Below, in pieces: positions 41,935 through 48,599 of a stretch of DNA of 64,000 bases. A program made the position numbers and the translations under genes. The first letter of the stretch is position 1; the number at the start of each line of letters is the position of its first letter. The stretch comes from Flavobacteriaceae bacterium (GTDB lineage Bacteria > Bacteroidota > Bacteroidia > Flavobacteriales > Flavobacteriaceae), in the NCBI GenBank assembly GCA_947453195.1, contig CANGFO010000001.1, positions 62,001 through 126,000 of the forward strand. The letters are read 5' to 3'. The notes below the pieces were generated by a model. The model had not been told where the DNA came from. It ran no database searches and saw nothing but the letters and a program-made list of their open reading frames with translations.

Positions 41935-44766
41935 TTATGGTTTTTTAGGGAAACCCGGATTAGCTGATTTTGGGGTTGCATTATCTAAATTGCTATCCGT
42001 TGGATCTAAATCCATTGGAGGAGCGCTCGCGCTATTTTGCTTTCCTTTAAAAGCAGGTGCCTGCATATTATTATTCGGATCTTGTCCTTGTTCATTAGGT
42101 TTCACAGCTTCTGGTTTTTTCCCTGCTGTTTTAGTCTCTGGAATAACAATATTTCTTTGAATTGGCACAATTGGTTTGTTTAACCAATCTCCAGCAATGT
42201 AATCATTACTATTTTTTTTCACCTGAACCACTTTGTAATTTTCACTTGAAATAACAATAGCAGGATCCGTTATTTTGTAATCTTTATATTCTTTCAATAC
42301 GTGCGCAATACCTGAAGCACTTTCGGCAGATTTAATCCCGTGAATAACCAAGAAATTACTTTCTAAAGTGTATATATCTGTTGAAACGGTTAGTTTTTCG
42401 ATGGTTCTTTCTTTAGCAAATTTGGTGATTTTATCTAAAAGATCTTTGGTGCTTTTTGCAGATAAATCGTCTGCTTTGTATAAAATATTCCATGATAATG
42501 GAAATTCTGAATTAAAAGATAATGATTCTAAATACGGAATTTTGGTTGCAATATAAACCTCGGTGTTTTTTCCTTCCTCACTATTTGGATAGGTCAGCGC
42601 AACATAATTTAATGCTTTTTTAAATTCGGCAACTCCTTTAAGTTTTCCAACAACATTCGCTTTTAGCAATTCAAATTTAGGCAACATATCTTCCCCCGTG
42701 AATTGATCAATAGCTTGTTCTAATTTAGGAAGAATTTCTCGGTATTTTTCTTTTTCAAAATCTCTGAATAATTCATTGTAGGCCACTTCGGGAGTGGAGC
42801 TTGCTAAAGTTCCTCCGCCAGAATTACTCAATATTTGTGCATAACGAGAATCTGGAAATTGCGCAATTATTTTAGACTTCATAGCCAGCGCTTTTTCTTT
42901 ATCAATAATCTCATATACTTTATAAAGAGTATACATTGATGGCAATACTAAACGCTCTTCGGGCTTGTTGTCTAACAATTTTTCTAGCTTGTCTGCAGCT
43001 CTTGGATACTCTTTAAATTTTTCTTTGTAAATCACTCCCAATTGGTAGTAAGCAAAATTTCGTTCTTTAGCAATACTGTCTAAAATCTTTGATGAAGAAG
43101 GGATTTGCTTGATGTAATAATTTACAGAATATTTTTCGTTTACCTCTTTTGATGGATTGTCGGCATCAGCCTGTGCCTCTTTATTGTCTTCCGGATTTTT
43201 ATCGTCTTTTATCGCTTCTTTTGCCAATCTCCAATTTAACACATGCGCTCTATCTCCCCATTTTTTCTTGAATTCTACCATTCCGAAAGAAACGGTTGAT
43301 GGATTGTAAAAGTAAAATGTACTTCCTGAACCTGGGTTTAAAGAAACCGGAGTGATTGCTTTAGTTGTAGCCGACTTAGAAGCCGAAGCATTATCTGAGT
43401 TAGCAGCATCTTTAGCTTTAGAATCTTTAAGTTTTGCTTCTACAGCTGCTGCTGTTTTAGCATCTTCTTTCTTCAAAGCATCAATATATTCTTTGTAATA
43501 TTTTTCCTTACCCTCTTTAGATAATGATGCTATTTTTAAAATACTATCATTTCGTTGTGCAATTCCTTCAAACTTAATTACGTCCTCTAGATTTTCTCTT
43601 TTCTTGGTAATCAATTTAAACTCTCTCGTTTTAGAATTTAAAACGGTAAGCGTACTATCAAAATATTTTCCTGCCAAGACATATTTCGCTTTATTGAAAT
43701 AAATATCCGCAAGATTTCTATAATTAGAAGCTACTAAATAGCTGTCGTTTGATCTTTTTTTAATGGATTTATTATAATAAACTATTGCCTCTTTAGGTTT
43801 ATTTTGTTTGTCATAAAACAAAGCCATTTGGTGATTTAACACATCTAAAAACGGACGGTTTTCTCTATCTTTAAGCAATAATCTGTATTTTTCTAAAAAG
43901 GCAATGGTGTCTCCTTTTTTATAATCAAACTGAGCAGCTTGGTGTGCGTGCGCCTGAATTACATATTGACGAGCTGATTTTCGATTCATATCAATCACCT
44001 CTTGAAATTTGGCGTAAGCACTATCCTTATGTCCTAAACGCTCATAAATTTGTGCTTCAATAAATCGGTAGCGTGCTTTTTCTTCGTTAGATTTAGTGAA
44101 ATCTGTAGCAATTTTAAGCTTTGCTAATGCGTTTTTATTTTCTTCCAAATTTAAATACGCTTGCGCTAATGCGGCGTTGGCATCTGCAAAAATTTGATCT
44201 TTAAATTTTATTTCGCCTAATAATTTTTTAAGATTTACAACCGCCGTGGCATCATTATCCATGCGCATGTTGGTTTTTTCTCTCCAAATTTTAACTTCTT
44301 GAATTCGACTACTTGTAGGGTATTTATACAAAACATAATTGAAAGCTTCCAAAGCGGGAACAAACCGTTGGTCGTAATACCTTGTTTTTCCTAACAATAA
44401 ATGCGCCTCGTCCATTTGTGGATTTTTTTCAGAGCCGTCAATATTCATCGAATGCTTTTGAATGGCTTTGGTTGCTTTGGTTTCCGCTTTTTCAAAATTT
44501 TGGTTTTTGGTTTGCCCTGGCAGCATCTGCTCTTCAGAAGCCTGCATACGCTCTACCGGAAGGATGGCCCAAAAATTATCGTTATACTGAGATTTAAGGT
44601 CAATAATTCCTTTATCTAGGGCTAAATTACCATTGTAAAGCACATTATCTCGAGTAGTTAAGGCGTGATAATTTCTAGAAATAAAGGTGTTCCTTTTTGT
44701 AGAACAAGCTACAAAAATTAAGACTGCTGCGGTAAGGAAAGTATATTTTAAAGTACTCGTTTTCAA
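41935..44766 (-). CDS. sprE: SprE/PorW-type T9SS lipoprotein
   Basis: A 943-residue TPR-rich lipoprotein that supports type IX secretion and gliding. The lipobox cysteine is at about residue 21 (FVACSTKRN). The N-terminal segment NYHALTTRDNVLYNGNLAL is the recognisable SprE/PorW start. TPR helices fill most of residues 130-460, and the C-terminal ~150 residues are proline-, asparagine- and lysine-rich and probably disordered. Two putative T9SS cargo proteins are in this window, so it fits the biology. Other T9SS core genes (gldKLMN, sprA) are not here. Confidence 0.9.
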   Translation of the reverse strand: MKTSTLKYTFLTAAVLIFVACSTKRNTFISRNYHALTTRDNVLYNGNLALDKGIIDLKSQYNDNFWAILPVERMQASEEQMLPGQTKNQNFEKAETKATKAIQKHSMNIDGSEKNPQMDEAHLLLGKTRYYDQRFVPALEAFNYVLYKYPTSSRIQEVKIWREKTNMRMDNDATAVVNLKKLLGEIKFKDQIFADANAALAQAYLNLEENKNALAKLKIATDFTKSNEEKARYRFIEAQIYERLGHKDSAYAKFQEVIDMNRKSARQYVIQAHAHQAAQFDYKKGDTIAFLEKYRLLLKDRENRPFLDVLNHQMALFYDKQNKPKEAIVYYNKSIKKRSNDSYLVASNYRNLADIYFNKAKYVLAGKYFDSTLTVLNSKTREFKLITKKRENLEDVIKFEGIAQRNDSILKIASLSKEGKEKYYKEYIDALKKEDAKTAAAVEAKLKDSKAKDAANSDNASASKSATTKAITPVSLNPGSGSTFYFYNPSTVSFGMVEFKKKWGDRAHVLNWRLAKEAIKDDKNPEDNKEAQADADNPSKEVNEKYSVNYYIKQIPSSSKILDSIAKERNFAYYQLGVIYKEKFKEYPRAADKLEKLLDNKPEERLVLPSMYTLYKVYEIIDKEKALAMKSKIIAQFPDSRYAQILSNSGGGTLASSTPEVAYNELFRDFEKEKYREILPKLEQAIDQFTGEDMLPKFELLKANVVGKLKGVAEFKKALNYVALTYPNSEEGKNTEVYIATKIPYLESLSFNSEFPLSWNILYKADDLSAKSTKDLLDKITKFAKERTIEKLTVSTDIYTLESNFLVIHGIKSAESASGIAHVLKEYKDYKITDPAIVISSENYKVVQVKKNSNDYIAGDWLNKPIVPIQRNIVIPETKTAGKKPEAVKPNEQGQDPNNNMQAPAFKGKQNSASAPPMDLDPTDSNLDNATPKSANPGFPKKP

Positions 44767-44908: not shown

Positions 44909-45598
44909 TTACGAAACCAAATCATACTCGGGATAGGTTTGTTTTAGGTATTCGGTGGCTTTGGAGGGAATAATAAAAAAAATGATGTATTCAATAATTA
45001 CCATTGAAACCATAAAAAAACTCATAAAAAATAACATAATTAGATTGGAATGATTTTCAAACTGTAAAAATAACTGAAAAGGCAAATAACTCATTCCCGC
45101 CATCGAGCTGTATCCATAAATAATATCTTTCAATAGCCATTTCTTTCCCTCTATTTTTGCTGTTTTTTTTCTTTTACTATTCATTCGAATTAATCCAACC
45201 CAAAAGGAAATTAAAATCATAAAAGTAAGTATTTCAGCAACTTCATGAGAAATAGTAATAGATTTCAGTAATTGAAACACGAGAAAAATCGATACTAGCG
45301 TTCCTATAATTTGGGGTAATCTAAAAAAAGCTTTAAAATGCTGCCACACTAATTTATTGTATTTTTTATTCATGGCTTTTTGACGTTGTTCTACCACATC
45401 CATAAAACCAAATATTCCAAATTTTTTGAACTCCATTTGTAAAGCTTCCTCAAAAGTTCGTTTTGGATTTTCTGTGCATTGTTCTTCAATAGAATTAGCT
45501 AAATGATCTACCAATTCCGTTTGCAAATCGTAATATTCAACATAATGTTGTTGTGTGAAAGTGTAAAGTTTTTGGATTTGGTCGGCTGATAATTTCAT
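44909..45598 (-). CDS. HAAS-like membrane protein, paralogue 3
   Basis: A 229-residue protein: an N-terminal cytoplasmic helical region (about 1-80) with the shared MKLSxxQI...DLQTELVDHLANSIEE pattern resembling the HAAS/permease-prefix domain, then about four to five membrane helices from about residue 95. The ORF track starts at a TTG overlapping the previous stop; the ATG at 45598 gives the same MKLS start as its paralogues and is chosen. It is the last gene of the PadR-led operon. Function unknown. Confidence 0.75.
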   Translation of the reverse strand: MKLSADQIQKLYTFTQQHYVEYYDLQTELVDHLANSIEEQCTENPKRTFEEALQMEFKKFGIFGFMDVVEQRQKAMNKKYNKLVWQHFKAFFRLPQIIGTLVSIFLVFQLLKSITISHEVAEILTFMILISFWVGLIRMNSKRKKTAKIEGKKWLLKDIIYGYSSMAGMSYLPFQLFLQFENHSNLIMLFFMSFFMVSMVIIEYIIFFIIPSKATEYLKQTYPEYDLVS

Positions 45599-45600
45599 AT

Positions 45601-46284
45601 TCAAAAATAGAGTTTGTGTTTTTTAAGTGTTTTAAAGTGTTTTACCACGAGATTCATACCTAGTATTGTGTAGGAAAATAATGTCATATAGCAAGTATTG
45701 CCAATAGCAACAATAAAAACAGACATATTCGGTCTATAAAAATGAATATGCATTTCTCCAAAACTGATCATGAGTAAAAAAATCACCATTGACCAACCCC
45801 TTCTTATAAATAATCGACTATAAGTGGTTTTCCTTTTAGAGTTTAATACCACAAAATATAAGGTAAGTGTTGATAAACTACAAAATATAAAAAATGCTTG
45901 AATTAAATTATCCGAAATTCTAATTATCTTTTCTCCATGATAAATTTGGTAGAATCCTGTTAGAATAATACTCGCAATAACCGCAGAAAAGTAGGTGCTT
46001 TTTGCAAGATCTTGAGTGTTTGATACACATTTATCAATTATTATTTTTGGTGCGTGAAAAAAATTTCCAAGCCAAAATGGAGCACTGGTTGTTCTTAAAA
46101 TATTTCGTCTTTCATAAAAAGAGTTCTTAAGAGCTAAATCAAAATCTACGCCTTCATCTTCAATTTTATCTTCAATTTCCGAAGCAATATGGTCTATCAA
46201 TTCTAATTTTATGTCGACATAAACTACTCCCTTCAATACTAAATTTTCGTCTATTTTTGCTATTTGTTCTTTGGATAATTTCAT
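45601..46284 (-). CDS. HAAS-like membrane protein, paralogue 2
   Basis: A 227-residue paralogue with the same plan: N-terminal region with MKLSKEQIAKIDE and KLELIDHIASEIEDKI, then about four membrane helices from about residue 95. It starts with the ATG at 46284, one base after the previous gene's stop (the track's TTG is rejected). It ends 2 bases before the next paralogue. It is more divergent in its membrane part than in its head. Confidence 0.75.
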   Translation of the reverse strand: MKLSKEQIAKIDENLVLKGVVYVDIKLELIDHIASEIEDKIEDEGVDFDLALKNSFYERRNILRTTSAPFWLGNFFHAPKIIIDKCVSNTQDLAKSTYFSAVIASIILTGFYQIYHGEKIIRISDNLIQAFFIFCSLSTLTLYFVVLNSKRKTTYSRLFIRRGWSMVIFLLMISFGEMHIHFYRPNMSVFIVAIGNTCYMTLFSYTILGMNLVVKHFKTLKKHKLYF

Positions 46285-46285
46285 A

Positions 46286-46915
46286 TTATACAATATTTAA
46301 ACGCTTCTTAAATTGCATGTGTTTTATATAACTATAAATTGCAATTGGAAAATAAGCAATAATCGTTGAATTCCAAAATAAACCCATTGGATAGGCTGCA
46401 GGAACAACGTAAGAAGCAACTCCAAAAAATAAAAAGAATGTAGCCATTTTATAAATTCGACTAAACTCATAAGAATAACTTGTTTCCTGTTTATTTATTG
46501 AAATAAAATAGCGTAAAATAAATAAAGATAAAAATAAAATAGCGCCGATGTAGAACATTGTACCTTTAGTATTTGCTGTTTCAAACTCTTTAAAATATAA
46601 AACTGAAAGACCAAGAATTATAGGAAGTGTTATGGAACTATAAATAATGTAACGCTTTTTAATTGCATTTAAAACCACAACTGAAAAACCTCTTTTATTA
46701 CTAATCCAAATACTATGCTTTAAAACCAAACTAGTTTCCCACGCTTTCAAAACTATTGTCACCGCTTCTTCAAAAGTGTTATTTTGATTTTTACACAAAT
46801 CTTCTATTTGGGTCGCAAAGTGATCTTTTATTTCAAGTTTAAAATCTAAAAAATCTAAGCCTCGATTTTCTAAAATTTCATCAATTTTTGCTATTTGTAT
46901 TTTAGATAATTTCAT
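46286..46915 (-). CDS. HAAS-like membrane protein, paralogue 1
   Basis: A 209-residue paralogue. The head has MKLSKIQIAKIDEIL and KLEIKDHFATQIEDLCKN, then FEEAV, as in the others, followed by about five membrane helices from residue 88. Only the head is clearly conserved among the three, which suggests a shared docking or signalling role for it. It starts 2 bases after the lipoprotein gene's stop. Confidence 0.75.
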   Translation of the reverse strand: MKLSKIQIAKIDEILENRGLDFLDFKLEIKDHFATQIEDLCKNQNNTFEEAVTIVLKAWETSLVLKHSIWISNKRGFSVVVLNAIKKRYIIYSSITLPIILGLSVLYFKEFETANTKGTMFYIGAILFLSLFILRYFISINKQETSYSYEFSRIYKMATFFLFFGVASYVVPAAYPMGLFWNSTIIAYFPIAIYSYIKHMQFKKRLNIV

Positions 46916-46917
46916 AA

Positions 46918-47484
46918 TTAATTTTCTTCTTTGGGTAAATCATTTAATGTTTTTATATACTTGCCATGCTCAAAAAAGAAAAGATTTCCTAACCATTCTT
47001 TATCTTTAAATGGTTTATCTCTTAATTCATTATGAAAATATTGGGTATAAACCGATCTAAAACTTTTTTTATAATAATCCCCATCTATAGCAAAAAGCGG
47101 CGAAGTAAAATTTTGGCTTAACGTTCTGTCTAAATTAGCAAAACCATTCATTACCAAAAACAACTTATAATGGTGTTTTTGGGCATACTTCTCATACACT
47201 TTGAGTGGTCTACAAAATTCCGAAGAGCAGCCATTGGTAAACTCATATACCATTGCAGCATCATATTTTAACAATTCTTCTTTTAATTGCAACGCATTGA
47301 TTTTATAAATAGTGTCTTTACTCAGATTTTCAAAATTTTTAAGGGCAATGATTTTAGATTTTTCTATTGGAGTAAGTTTACCATAATCATTAGTAAGTCC
47401 GTTAATTTTACACGAAGTTAGTATTGACAGTAGTAATGATACTAATAGGTATACTAAGCAATTTGGTCTGTTGTTATTTTTCAT
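46918..47484 (-). CDS. Lipoprotein of unknown function, possibly thioredoxin-like
   Basis: A 188-residue lipoprotein with lipobox cysteine at about residue 25 (LTSCKING). The mature part contains VYEFTNGCSSEFCRPLKVYEK, a strand then two cysteines five residues apart (CSSEFC), followed by a second strand (HYKLFLVMNGF). This resembles a thioredoxin-like core, but the cysteine spacing is not the classical CxxC, so redox activity is uncertain. The ATG at 47484 is chosen over the track's TTG. It begins 2 bases after padR. Confidence 0.65.
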   Translation of the reverse strand: MKNNNRPNCLVYLLVSLLLSILTSCKINGLTNDYGKLTPIEKSKIIALKNFENLSKDTIYKINALQLKEELLKYDAAMVYEFTNGCSSEFCRPLKVYEKYAQKHHYKLFLVMNGFANLDRTLSQNFTSPLFAIDGDYYKKSFRSVYTQYFHNELRDKPFKDKEWLGNLFFFEHGKYIKTLNDLPKEEN

Positions 47485-47486
47485 TT

Positions 47487-47822
47487 TCAATATTCTAATT
47501 TTGGATTTACTAAACTTTGCATGTTTCTAATAAAATCTTCCAATTCAGCCAATCGGTTAATGGTTTCTTTGCTTCCTTTTTCGGTAAGTTTATAGTATTT
47601 TCGTAATCTATTGTCTACATTTTCAACCTCCACTTCTAGAACTCCTTCGGCTTCCAATTTATGCAAAGCGGGATACAAAGCACCTTCGGTTATTTTCAAT
47701 TCCCCACTAGTAATTTCCTTTACCTTCTGGGTAATTTCATAACCATACATCCTACCGTTTTCCTCCAAAAGTTTCATCACTATGGTATTCAAACTACCTT
47801 TATATAATTGCGAATTTTTCAT
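47487..47822 (-). CDS. PadR-family transcriptional regulator
   Basis: A 111-residue winged-helix regulator of the PadR (s1-type) group. The recognition core GRMYGYEITQKVKEITSGELKITEGALYPALHKLEAEGVL is the PadR signature, followed by RRKYYKLT-like RLRKYYKLTEKGSKE and a C-terminal dimerisation helix. The track starts at a GTG inside a repeat remnant; the ATG at 47822 gives the normal start (MKNSQLYKGS). It is the first gene of the HAAS-like operon. PadR proteins often repress their own operon, which fits the operator described. Confidence 0.93.
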   Translation of the reverse strand: MKNSQLYKGSLNTIVMKLLEENGRMYGYEITQKVKEITSGELKITEGALYPALHKLEAEGVLEVEVENVDNRLRKYYKLTEKGSKETINRLAELEDFIRNMQSLVNPKLEY

Positions 47823-47866: not shown

Positions 47867-47909
47867 CAAATATACATAAGTTTTTTATATACATAAAATT
47901 CTTATGTAT
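47867..47909. promoter_or_regulatory. padR promoter with candidate operator
   Basis: TATATTTG (-7 box, minus strand, 47874-47867) overlaps a half-site TATACATAAG (47871-47880). A direct copy lies at 47888-47897, and an inverted copy CTTATGTAT at 47901-47909. ATACATAA-AATTC-TTATGTAT (47889-47909) is a perfect palindrome with a 5-base centre. The layout is typical of an autoregulatory site for a dimeric repressor such as PadR. Confidence 0.55.
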
Positions 47910-47985: not shown

Positions 47986-48399
47986 ATGAAAAATATAGAA
48001 GCTAAAGGCGTAGGGTTTCCAAACTATTTCAAAAAAATTGGTGTTATTTTATTTGTTTTAGTGATTGTTGTAATGCTTATTATAAAAGGATTACATTATA
48101 ATTTTAATACAACCCAAAAAGGAAATATTAAAATTGTAGGAATGAGTTTATTAAATATAGGATTATGCTTTATAGCATTTGCAAAAGAAAAAATAGACGA
48201 TGAAATGATGGTTCATCTTAAATTAAAATCCATCTATGGAGCATTAATTTTTGGAATTGTTTATACTTTAATTTCACCTCTAATTGATATAGCATTTAAT
48301 GATGCCGTTCAACTAATATCGGCACAACAACTGGTTACCCTTATGCTATTTTCTCATATTGGAACTTATTTTTTTCTAAAACGAAATGAAAATAAATGA
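47986..48399 (+). CDS. Small four-helix membrane protein
   Basis: A 137-residue protein with about four membrane helices (about 16-35, 49-66, 84-105, 115-132) and few long loops. I do not recognise a family with certainty. Its stop overlaps the following XRE regulator gene by 4 bases (ATGA), so translation is coupled. It is divergent from padR. Pairs of a small membrane protein and a tiny XRE regulator are common in Firmicutes and Bacteroidota, but their roles differ. Confidence 0.7.
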   Translation: MKNIEAKGVGFPNYFKKIGVILFVLVIVVMLIIKGLHYNFNTTQKGNIKIVGMSLLNIGLCFIAFAKEKIDDEMMVHLKLKSIYGALIFGIVYTLISPLIDIAFNDAVQLISAQQLVTLMLFSHIGTYFFLKRNENK

Positions 48400-48599
48400 A
48401 AAATACTCTAAAAGTAGAAAGAGCGAAACTTAATTTTACGCAACAAGATTTAGCAGATAAAGTATTTGTTTCTAGACAAACCATTAACTCTATAGAAACG
48501 GAAAGATATATACCTTCAACCGTTCTTGCCTTAAAAATTTCGAAAGTGTTTGCTATTAGCGTTAACGAAATATTTATACTAGAGGAACATGAAAAATAA
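48396..48599 (+). CDS. XRE-family helix-turn-helix regulator
   Basis: A 67-residue DNA-binding protein consisting of one HTH_3 domain: LNFTQQDLADKVFVSRQTIN followed by IETERYIPSTVLALKISKVF is diagnostic. It has no effector domain, which suggests it acts as a compact regulator, possibly of its own operon. Its ATG overlaps the preceding stop (ATGA). Confidence 0.92.
   Translation: MKNTLKVERAKLNFTQQDLADKVFVSRQTINSIETERYIPSTVLALKISKVFAISVNEIFILEEHEK

Follow-up and report, generated by a model that had tools for sequence, protein, structure and literature searches.

A conserved padR cassette of tandem membrane paralogues with a common N-terminal head in Flavobacteriaceae

The gene run and its upstream site

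The window (the whole stretch of DNA analysed, 64,000 nucleotides) contains a minus-strand run of five genes, 47822-44909, with intergenic gaps of 1-2 nt and an ATG start in every ORF (Table 1); the coordinates and strand of this tandem arrangement, as described in a sequence-only reading of the same DNA, were verified. That reading also placed a PadR regulator at the head of the run, and the product of the lead gene does exceed the curated cut-off of PF03551 (E 1.3e-20; 73.6 bits against 27) and matches many solved PadR chains at E ~1e-9, this being the sole family match among the five cassette proteins. Upstream, a pair of genes on the plus strand (47986-48599, overlapping by 4 nt) encodes a 137-aa membrane protein without a family match and a 67-aa XRE-type HTH regulator (HTH_3 E 1.5e-11); the pair stands divergently between padR and a PaaE-like reductase, which in most relatives adjoins padR directly.

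Table 1. Genes and sites of the cassette in window coordinates.
Feature	Position	Strand	Basis
padR (P0001), 111-aa PadR-family winged-helix regulator	47487..47822	-	Pfam PF03551; solved PadR chains
Probable thioredoxin-fold lipoprotein (P0002), lipobox LTSC, Cys86-x4-Cys91	46918..47484	-	AlphaFold2; Foldseek; 6 homologues
M1 (P0003, 209 aa), head (~residues 1-58) and membrane tail	46286..46915	-	BLASTP; orthologue in L128
M2 (P0004, 227 aa), head and membrane tail	45601..46284	-	BLASTP; orthologue in L128
M3 (P0005, 229 aa), head and membrane tail, conserved last paralogue	44909..45598	-	orthologue counts; AlphaFold2
Candidate 21-bp palindromic operator ATACATAANNNNNTTATGTAT, upstream of padR	47889..47909	.	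conservation; uniqueness
TATATTTG, match to Bacteroidetes -7 box TAnnTTTG	47867..47874	-	position and consensus

The lipoprotein has no hit in Pfam. The first Foldseek matches of its AlphaFold2 model (pLDDT 79) are thioredoxins (probability 0.97-0.99, E 3e-3, TM ~0.3-0.45), lending moderate support to the earlier suggestion that it is thioredoxin-like; Cys25, Cys86, and Cys91 are invariant in 6 homologues, and the cysteines are spaced Cx4C, not CxxC. Judging from the model, a thioredoxin-like fold is probable.

The palindrome upstream of padR, ATACATAAGAATTTTATGTAT, has no second match with ≤1 mismatch anywhere else in the genome (2.42 Mb), which suggests that PadR serves only its own operon. 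Its 16 arm positions recur with ≤2 mismatches in 112 of 118 related padR upstream regions, compared with 0.08% of shuffles, an approximate null that rests on mononucleotide shuffles and related loci. Of 111 loci, 100 have a match to the Bacteroidetes -7 box consensus TAnnTTTG (PMC2483708) close to the operator, compared with 10% of shuffles; counted from where the operator starts, the match nearly always lies at +33/+35 or +18/+20, and the operator thus covers the expected -33 region, as it would for a repressor.

The common head and its kinship

As the sequence-only reading had it, M1, M2, and M3 share a head and differ in their tails: BLASTP finds similarity over residues ~1-57 (M1/M2, E 6e-13; M1/M3, 8e-10; M2/M3, 5e-8) and no significant similarity beyond the head. 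All three tails are helical membrane parts. The AlphaFold2 model of M3 (pLDDT 92, pTM 0.84) has a three-helix head (residues 5-17, 23-43, and 49-91), the core expected of heads in HAAS-PadR dyads, and approximately four membrane helices; a fold search of this model against the PDB gave no match. Among 277 related head proteins, m-m pairs between loci have 38% identity in the head and 24% in the tail, with shuffled tails at 20%, and M3 orthologues are 68% identical in the head versus 37% in the tail. Weak hits to STING_TM, SLATT_4, CPP1-like, and VCA0040-like families were rejected as scattered matches to membrane composition.

The same reading compared the head to HAAS or permease-prefix domains, and standard models do not detect this kinship. 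The window heads matched none of the Pfam HAAS models, a direct search of the window proteins against NCBIfam gave no hit, direct comparison of the heads with PspC-type HAAS domains from Bacteroidota, a narrow set, gave a negative result, and the DUF1700/HAAS_TM model (PF08006) matched neither the window proteins nor anything else in the genome, a control search with it likewise giving none. Weak matches to DUF1129, a family of the HAAS superfamily (PMC11237479), were confined to 4 relatives. For profile-profile comparison, nine PadR-adjacent proteins served as an independent set; they are encoded on plasmids of Bacillota, Deinococcota, and Actinomycetota, several carry the annotation "permease prefix domain 1" or "DUF1700", and their E values against Pfam HAAS go down to 1.3e-13. 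The evidence from these and related comparisons is as follows: i) hhalign aligns the flavobacterial heads to the independent-set profile at 72-88% probability with scores up to 34.1, twice that of the best decoy (~17.2 among 150 column-shuffled decoys; 15.5 among 37 slices of unrelated families), and the same set scores 31.3 against accepted HAAS domains; ii) the alignment register is kept over helix 2 (D-[LI]-[QR]-x-E-[LM]-x-D-H) and helix 3; iii) NCBIfam perm_prefix_1 (NF038403) is the leading match for 5 of 25 heads scanned alone (best E 0.0011, under the 30-bit curated cut-off); iv) in two loci (L263 and L264) the head forms the N-terminus of an ADOP/MacB-FtsX-type permease directly after padR, the very architecture behind the name "permease prefix"; and v) a heads-only profile finds matches in 34 of 396 Bacteroidota genomes, and padR adjoins the head gene in all 18 inspected loci of other Bacteroidota, as well as in Spirosoma. 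The GxP motif of HAAS, which kinks helix 3 and is said to shape the HAAS groove, is not kept; M3 heads instead read G-[VI]-F-G, with G61, G64, and F65 invariant, a motif that M1 and M2 lack. We conclude from these comparisons that the M1-M3 heads belong, on indirect profile evidence, to the HAAS superfamily by homology, with one defining motif divergent, and the earlier comparison is thus borne out with Pfam HAAS itself unmatched. Compared with NF038403 and the PadR-associated ADOP permeases (TIGR03434), the helix 2 and helix 3 region aligns, but the window heads are carried by small membrane proteins with four helices instead of by a permease.

In another locus (L265:4110-5360), a head protein adjoining padR has a tail that resembles GldL_N (PF22827, E 2.9e-6) and the GldM N-terminal domain (PF12081, E 8.7e-13), a possible link between PadR-head systems and gliding-motor-like proteins.

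Distribution of the cassette and its chromosomal site

Of the genomes sampled, 60 of 251 in the family and 53 of 150 in the genus carry an M3 orthologue. We analysed 125 non-identical loci (15 duplicates removed) with a simple ORF caller and overlapping public collections, and in 120 of them the caller finds padR with head genes behind it. Wherever adjacency could be assessed, the head lies beside padR, one distant exception apart; among the other loci, L042 holds an uncalled copy, the contig ends inside padR in L141 and in the identical L123 and L142, and no padR is visible in L169 or in the distant relative L070. In the 120 loci, head genes number one (28 loci), two (50), three (24), four (9), five (5), six (3), or nine (1), and M3 is the final head gene in 114. 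The order of padR, then heads, then M3 last is therefore conserved, but the five-gene set itself is not: the lipoprotein gene is present in only 3 of the 120 cassettes, and the three paralogues are no fixed set, head genes ranging from one to nine. One relative (L128) holds M1, M2, and M3 in the window's order plus one extra head gene (phmmer, M1 5e-128 and M2 5e-146). The lipoprotein is a recent accessory addition confined to close relatives; a copy 75% identical is found elsewhere in the window's own genome, away from any padR (G000:C8:45108-45632; L137:7100-7636). The locus with nine tandem head-type membrane paralogues after one padR (L136:2937-9356) has other neighbours and no DUF5687 pair.

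The usual order is PaaE-like reductase (divergent), padR, heads, M3, DUF5687 permease, ABC ATPase, and PorW/SprE. In the window, PorW/SprE, a T9SS periplasmic lipoprotein (41935-44766, minus strand; NF052312 E 2.2e-236), directly follows M3. We were unable to find any remnant of the DUF5687-ABC pair near the window cassette, and DUF5687 was not found anywhere in this genome (94.7% complete). Among relatives with a full locus, the closest (L119/L140) carries padR, the lipoprotein gene, M3, DUF5687, and ABC, so the pair was most likely deleted in the window genome. A Flavobacterium group (L143-L149, L151, L155, L159, L168, L170, and L188) has opposite-strand genes of ~170 and 313 aa after the cassette instead of the DUF5687 pair.

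Where M3 is missing, the flanking genes close up: the reductase gene directly adjoins DUF5687 in 19 of 20 inspected genomes that have DUF5687 and no M3 hit, and the padR-head cassette is therefore a presence/absence unit at one chromosomal site. PadR, not the ABC pair, is the constant partner of the heads, because the pair adjoins the cassette in only 97 of 120 loci (not in 23, the window genome included) and DUF5687, found in 186 of the 251 genomes versus 60 for M3, mostly occurs without M3. The ABC pair as an obligate output of the cassette is correspondingly weakened, DUF5687 standing without a cassette in 20 of 20 inspected genomes that lack an M3 hit. Gaps between cassette and transporter are ~50 nt in relatives, and a coupling by read-through, though not obligatory, is plausible. 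A literature search on DUF5687 found nothing.

That the tandem paralogues represent neutral or selfish expansion, or else an immunity-like set of membrane effectors silenced by PadR, with no sensing at all, would accord with copy numbers of one to nine, with tails near random identity, and with weak hits to single domains, STING_TM and SLATT_4 among them; we consider it improbable, since M3 keeps the last position in 114 of 120 loci and its heads are 68% identical, the chromosomal position is fixed, and the membrane hits are weak and scattered with no relevant PADLOC hit. A defence system as such was rejected, there being no relevant PADLOC hit and the PadR matches to Csa3 reflecting winged-helix similarity.

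A HAAS-PadR type reading and its main rival

In the proposal of Ravi et al. 2024 (mSystems, PMC11237479), HAAS domains relay a signal from the membrane to PadR, and PadR comes off the DNA in response. Such HAAS-PadR pairs were put forward there as two-component-like signalling, so the earlier statement that the arrangement has no described function went too far. Our data fit this proposal, because PadR is the one thing that stays constant beside a conserved head whose tails vary, and because the operator overlaps the promoter. We favour, by a modest degree, a HAAS-PadR type cassette with one repressor and several envelope sensors, self-repressing and relieved by the membrane heads. Starting from what gene order, head homology, operator, and presence/absence of the cassette establish, we infer that i) a PadR dimer would bind the palindrome overlapping the promoter of its own operon and repress it, as the conservation and position of the site suggest; ii) M1, M2, and M3 would be sensors, their divergent membrane tails feeling different membrane or envelope disturbances, and multiple paralogues would bring multiple stimuli to one repressor; iii) the common cytosolic three-helix head would dock onto PadR, which would then leave the operator; iv) derepression would supply more sensors and, in the window species, more of the periplasmic thioredoxin-like lipoprotein; and v) read-through would also raise the DUF5687/ABC-ATPase pair in most relatives. 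Counted against this reading are the GxP motif that is not kept, the unmatched Pfam HAAS models, the negative PspC-type comparison, and the existence of PadR proteins inducible by small ligands without membrane partners, such as LmrR (PMC6624303). The distance correlation between PadR and M3 heads (mirror-tree, controlled for a neighbour gene) was ~0.05, giving no signal.

The main rival takes up that last point: PadR would be a simple ligand-binding, drug-sensing repressor like LmrR and LftR, its membrane proteins would be effectors (small-molecule resistance or membrane-protective), and the head would serve assembly among themselves or with the ABC transporter instead of docking onto PadR. 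LmrR and LftR do regulate efflux pumps in a drug-dependent way, and in an lltR* mutant the phenotype came from overexpressing the DUF1700 protein Lmo0600 itself (PMC6624303); here, too, the ABC pair lies directly downstream in 97 of 120 loci, and head fusions to ADOP-type permeases exist. We nevertheless judge this explanation rather unlikely: padR stays with the heads in the 23 loci where the pair is not adjacent, DUF5687 is far more widespread than M3, and heads with quite different tails fit a common partner, the sole common neighbour being padR.

Among known systems, the HAAS-PadR dyad (PMC11237479) likewise has PadR adjoining membrane proteins with an N-terminal three-helix head and varied membrane domains; it differs in that here the head is beyond Pfam HAAS detection and does not keep GxP, one to nine tandem paralogues stand behind each PadR, no PspC/Toastrack partner is seen, and the cassette has its own conserved operator. 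Listeria LltR-Lmo0600 (PMC6624303) shares the order of padR and then a gene for a HAAS-type membrane protein, as well as repression of its own operon (predicted for the window), but it is a Firmicute system with a single DUF1700 membrane protein, a DUF4097 protein, and no tandem paralogues. LmrR-LmrCD and LftR-LieAB, in which PadR controls ABC efflux (PMC6624303), resemble most relatives of the window in having PadR upstream of an ABC transporter; no head proteins are described there, however, and the transporter pair is gone from the window genome.

We conclude that the padR-head cassette is genuine, conserved, and under-annotated, and that it is a variant of the HAAS-PadR type rather than a separate kind. 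Beyond the sequence-only reading, it has a conserved operator and promoter, comes and goes at one chromosomal site, and has here lost the DUF5687 ABC pair. Its heads fall outside all Pfam families and are missed by standard annotation, even though M3 is present in ~1/4 of the sampled Flavobacteriaceae genomes and ~1/3 of those of the genus. We found no mechanistic proof of the HAAS-PadR mechanism in the literature, and the conserved operator offers a direct and cheap test of it; loci that differ in how many sensor paralogues stand with one repressor form a natural series for asking whether one PadR integrates several membrane signals. It is possible, and we put it forward tentatively, that unrelated tails on one docking head report various envelope states to a single PadR, with a repertoire gained and lost gene by gene (one to nine) at a mostly fixed site, which would give Bacteroidota an alternative to two-component systems that needs no kinase.
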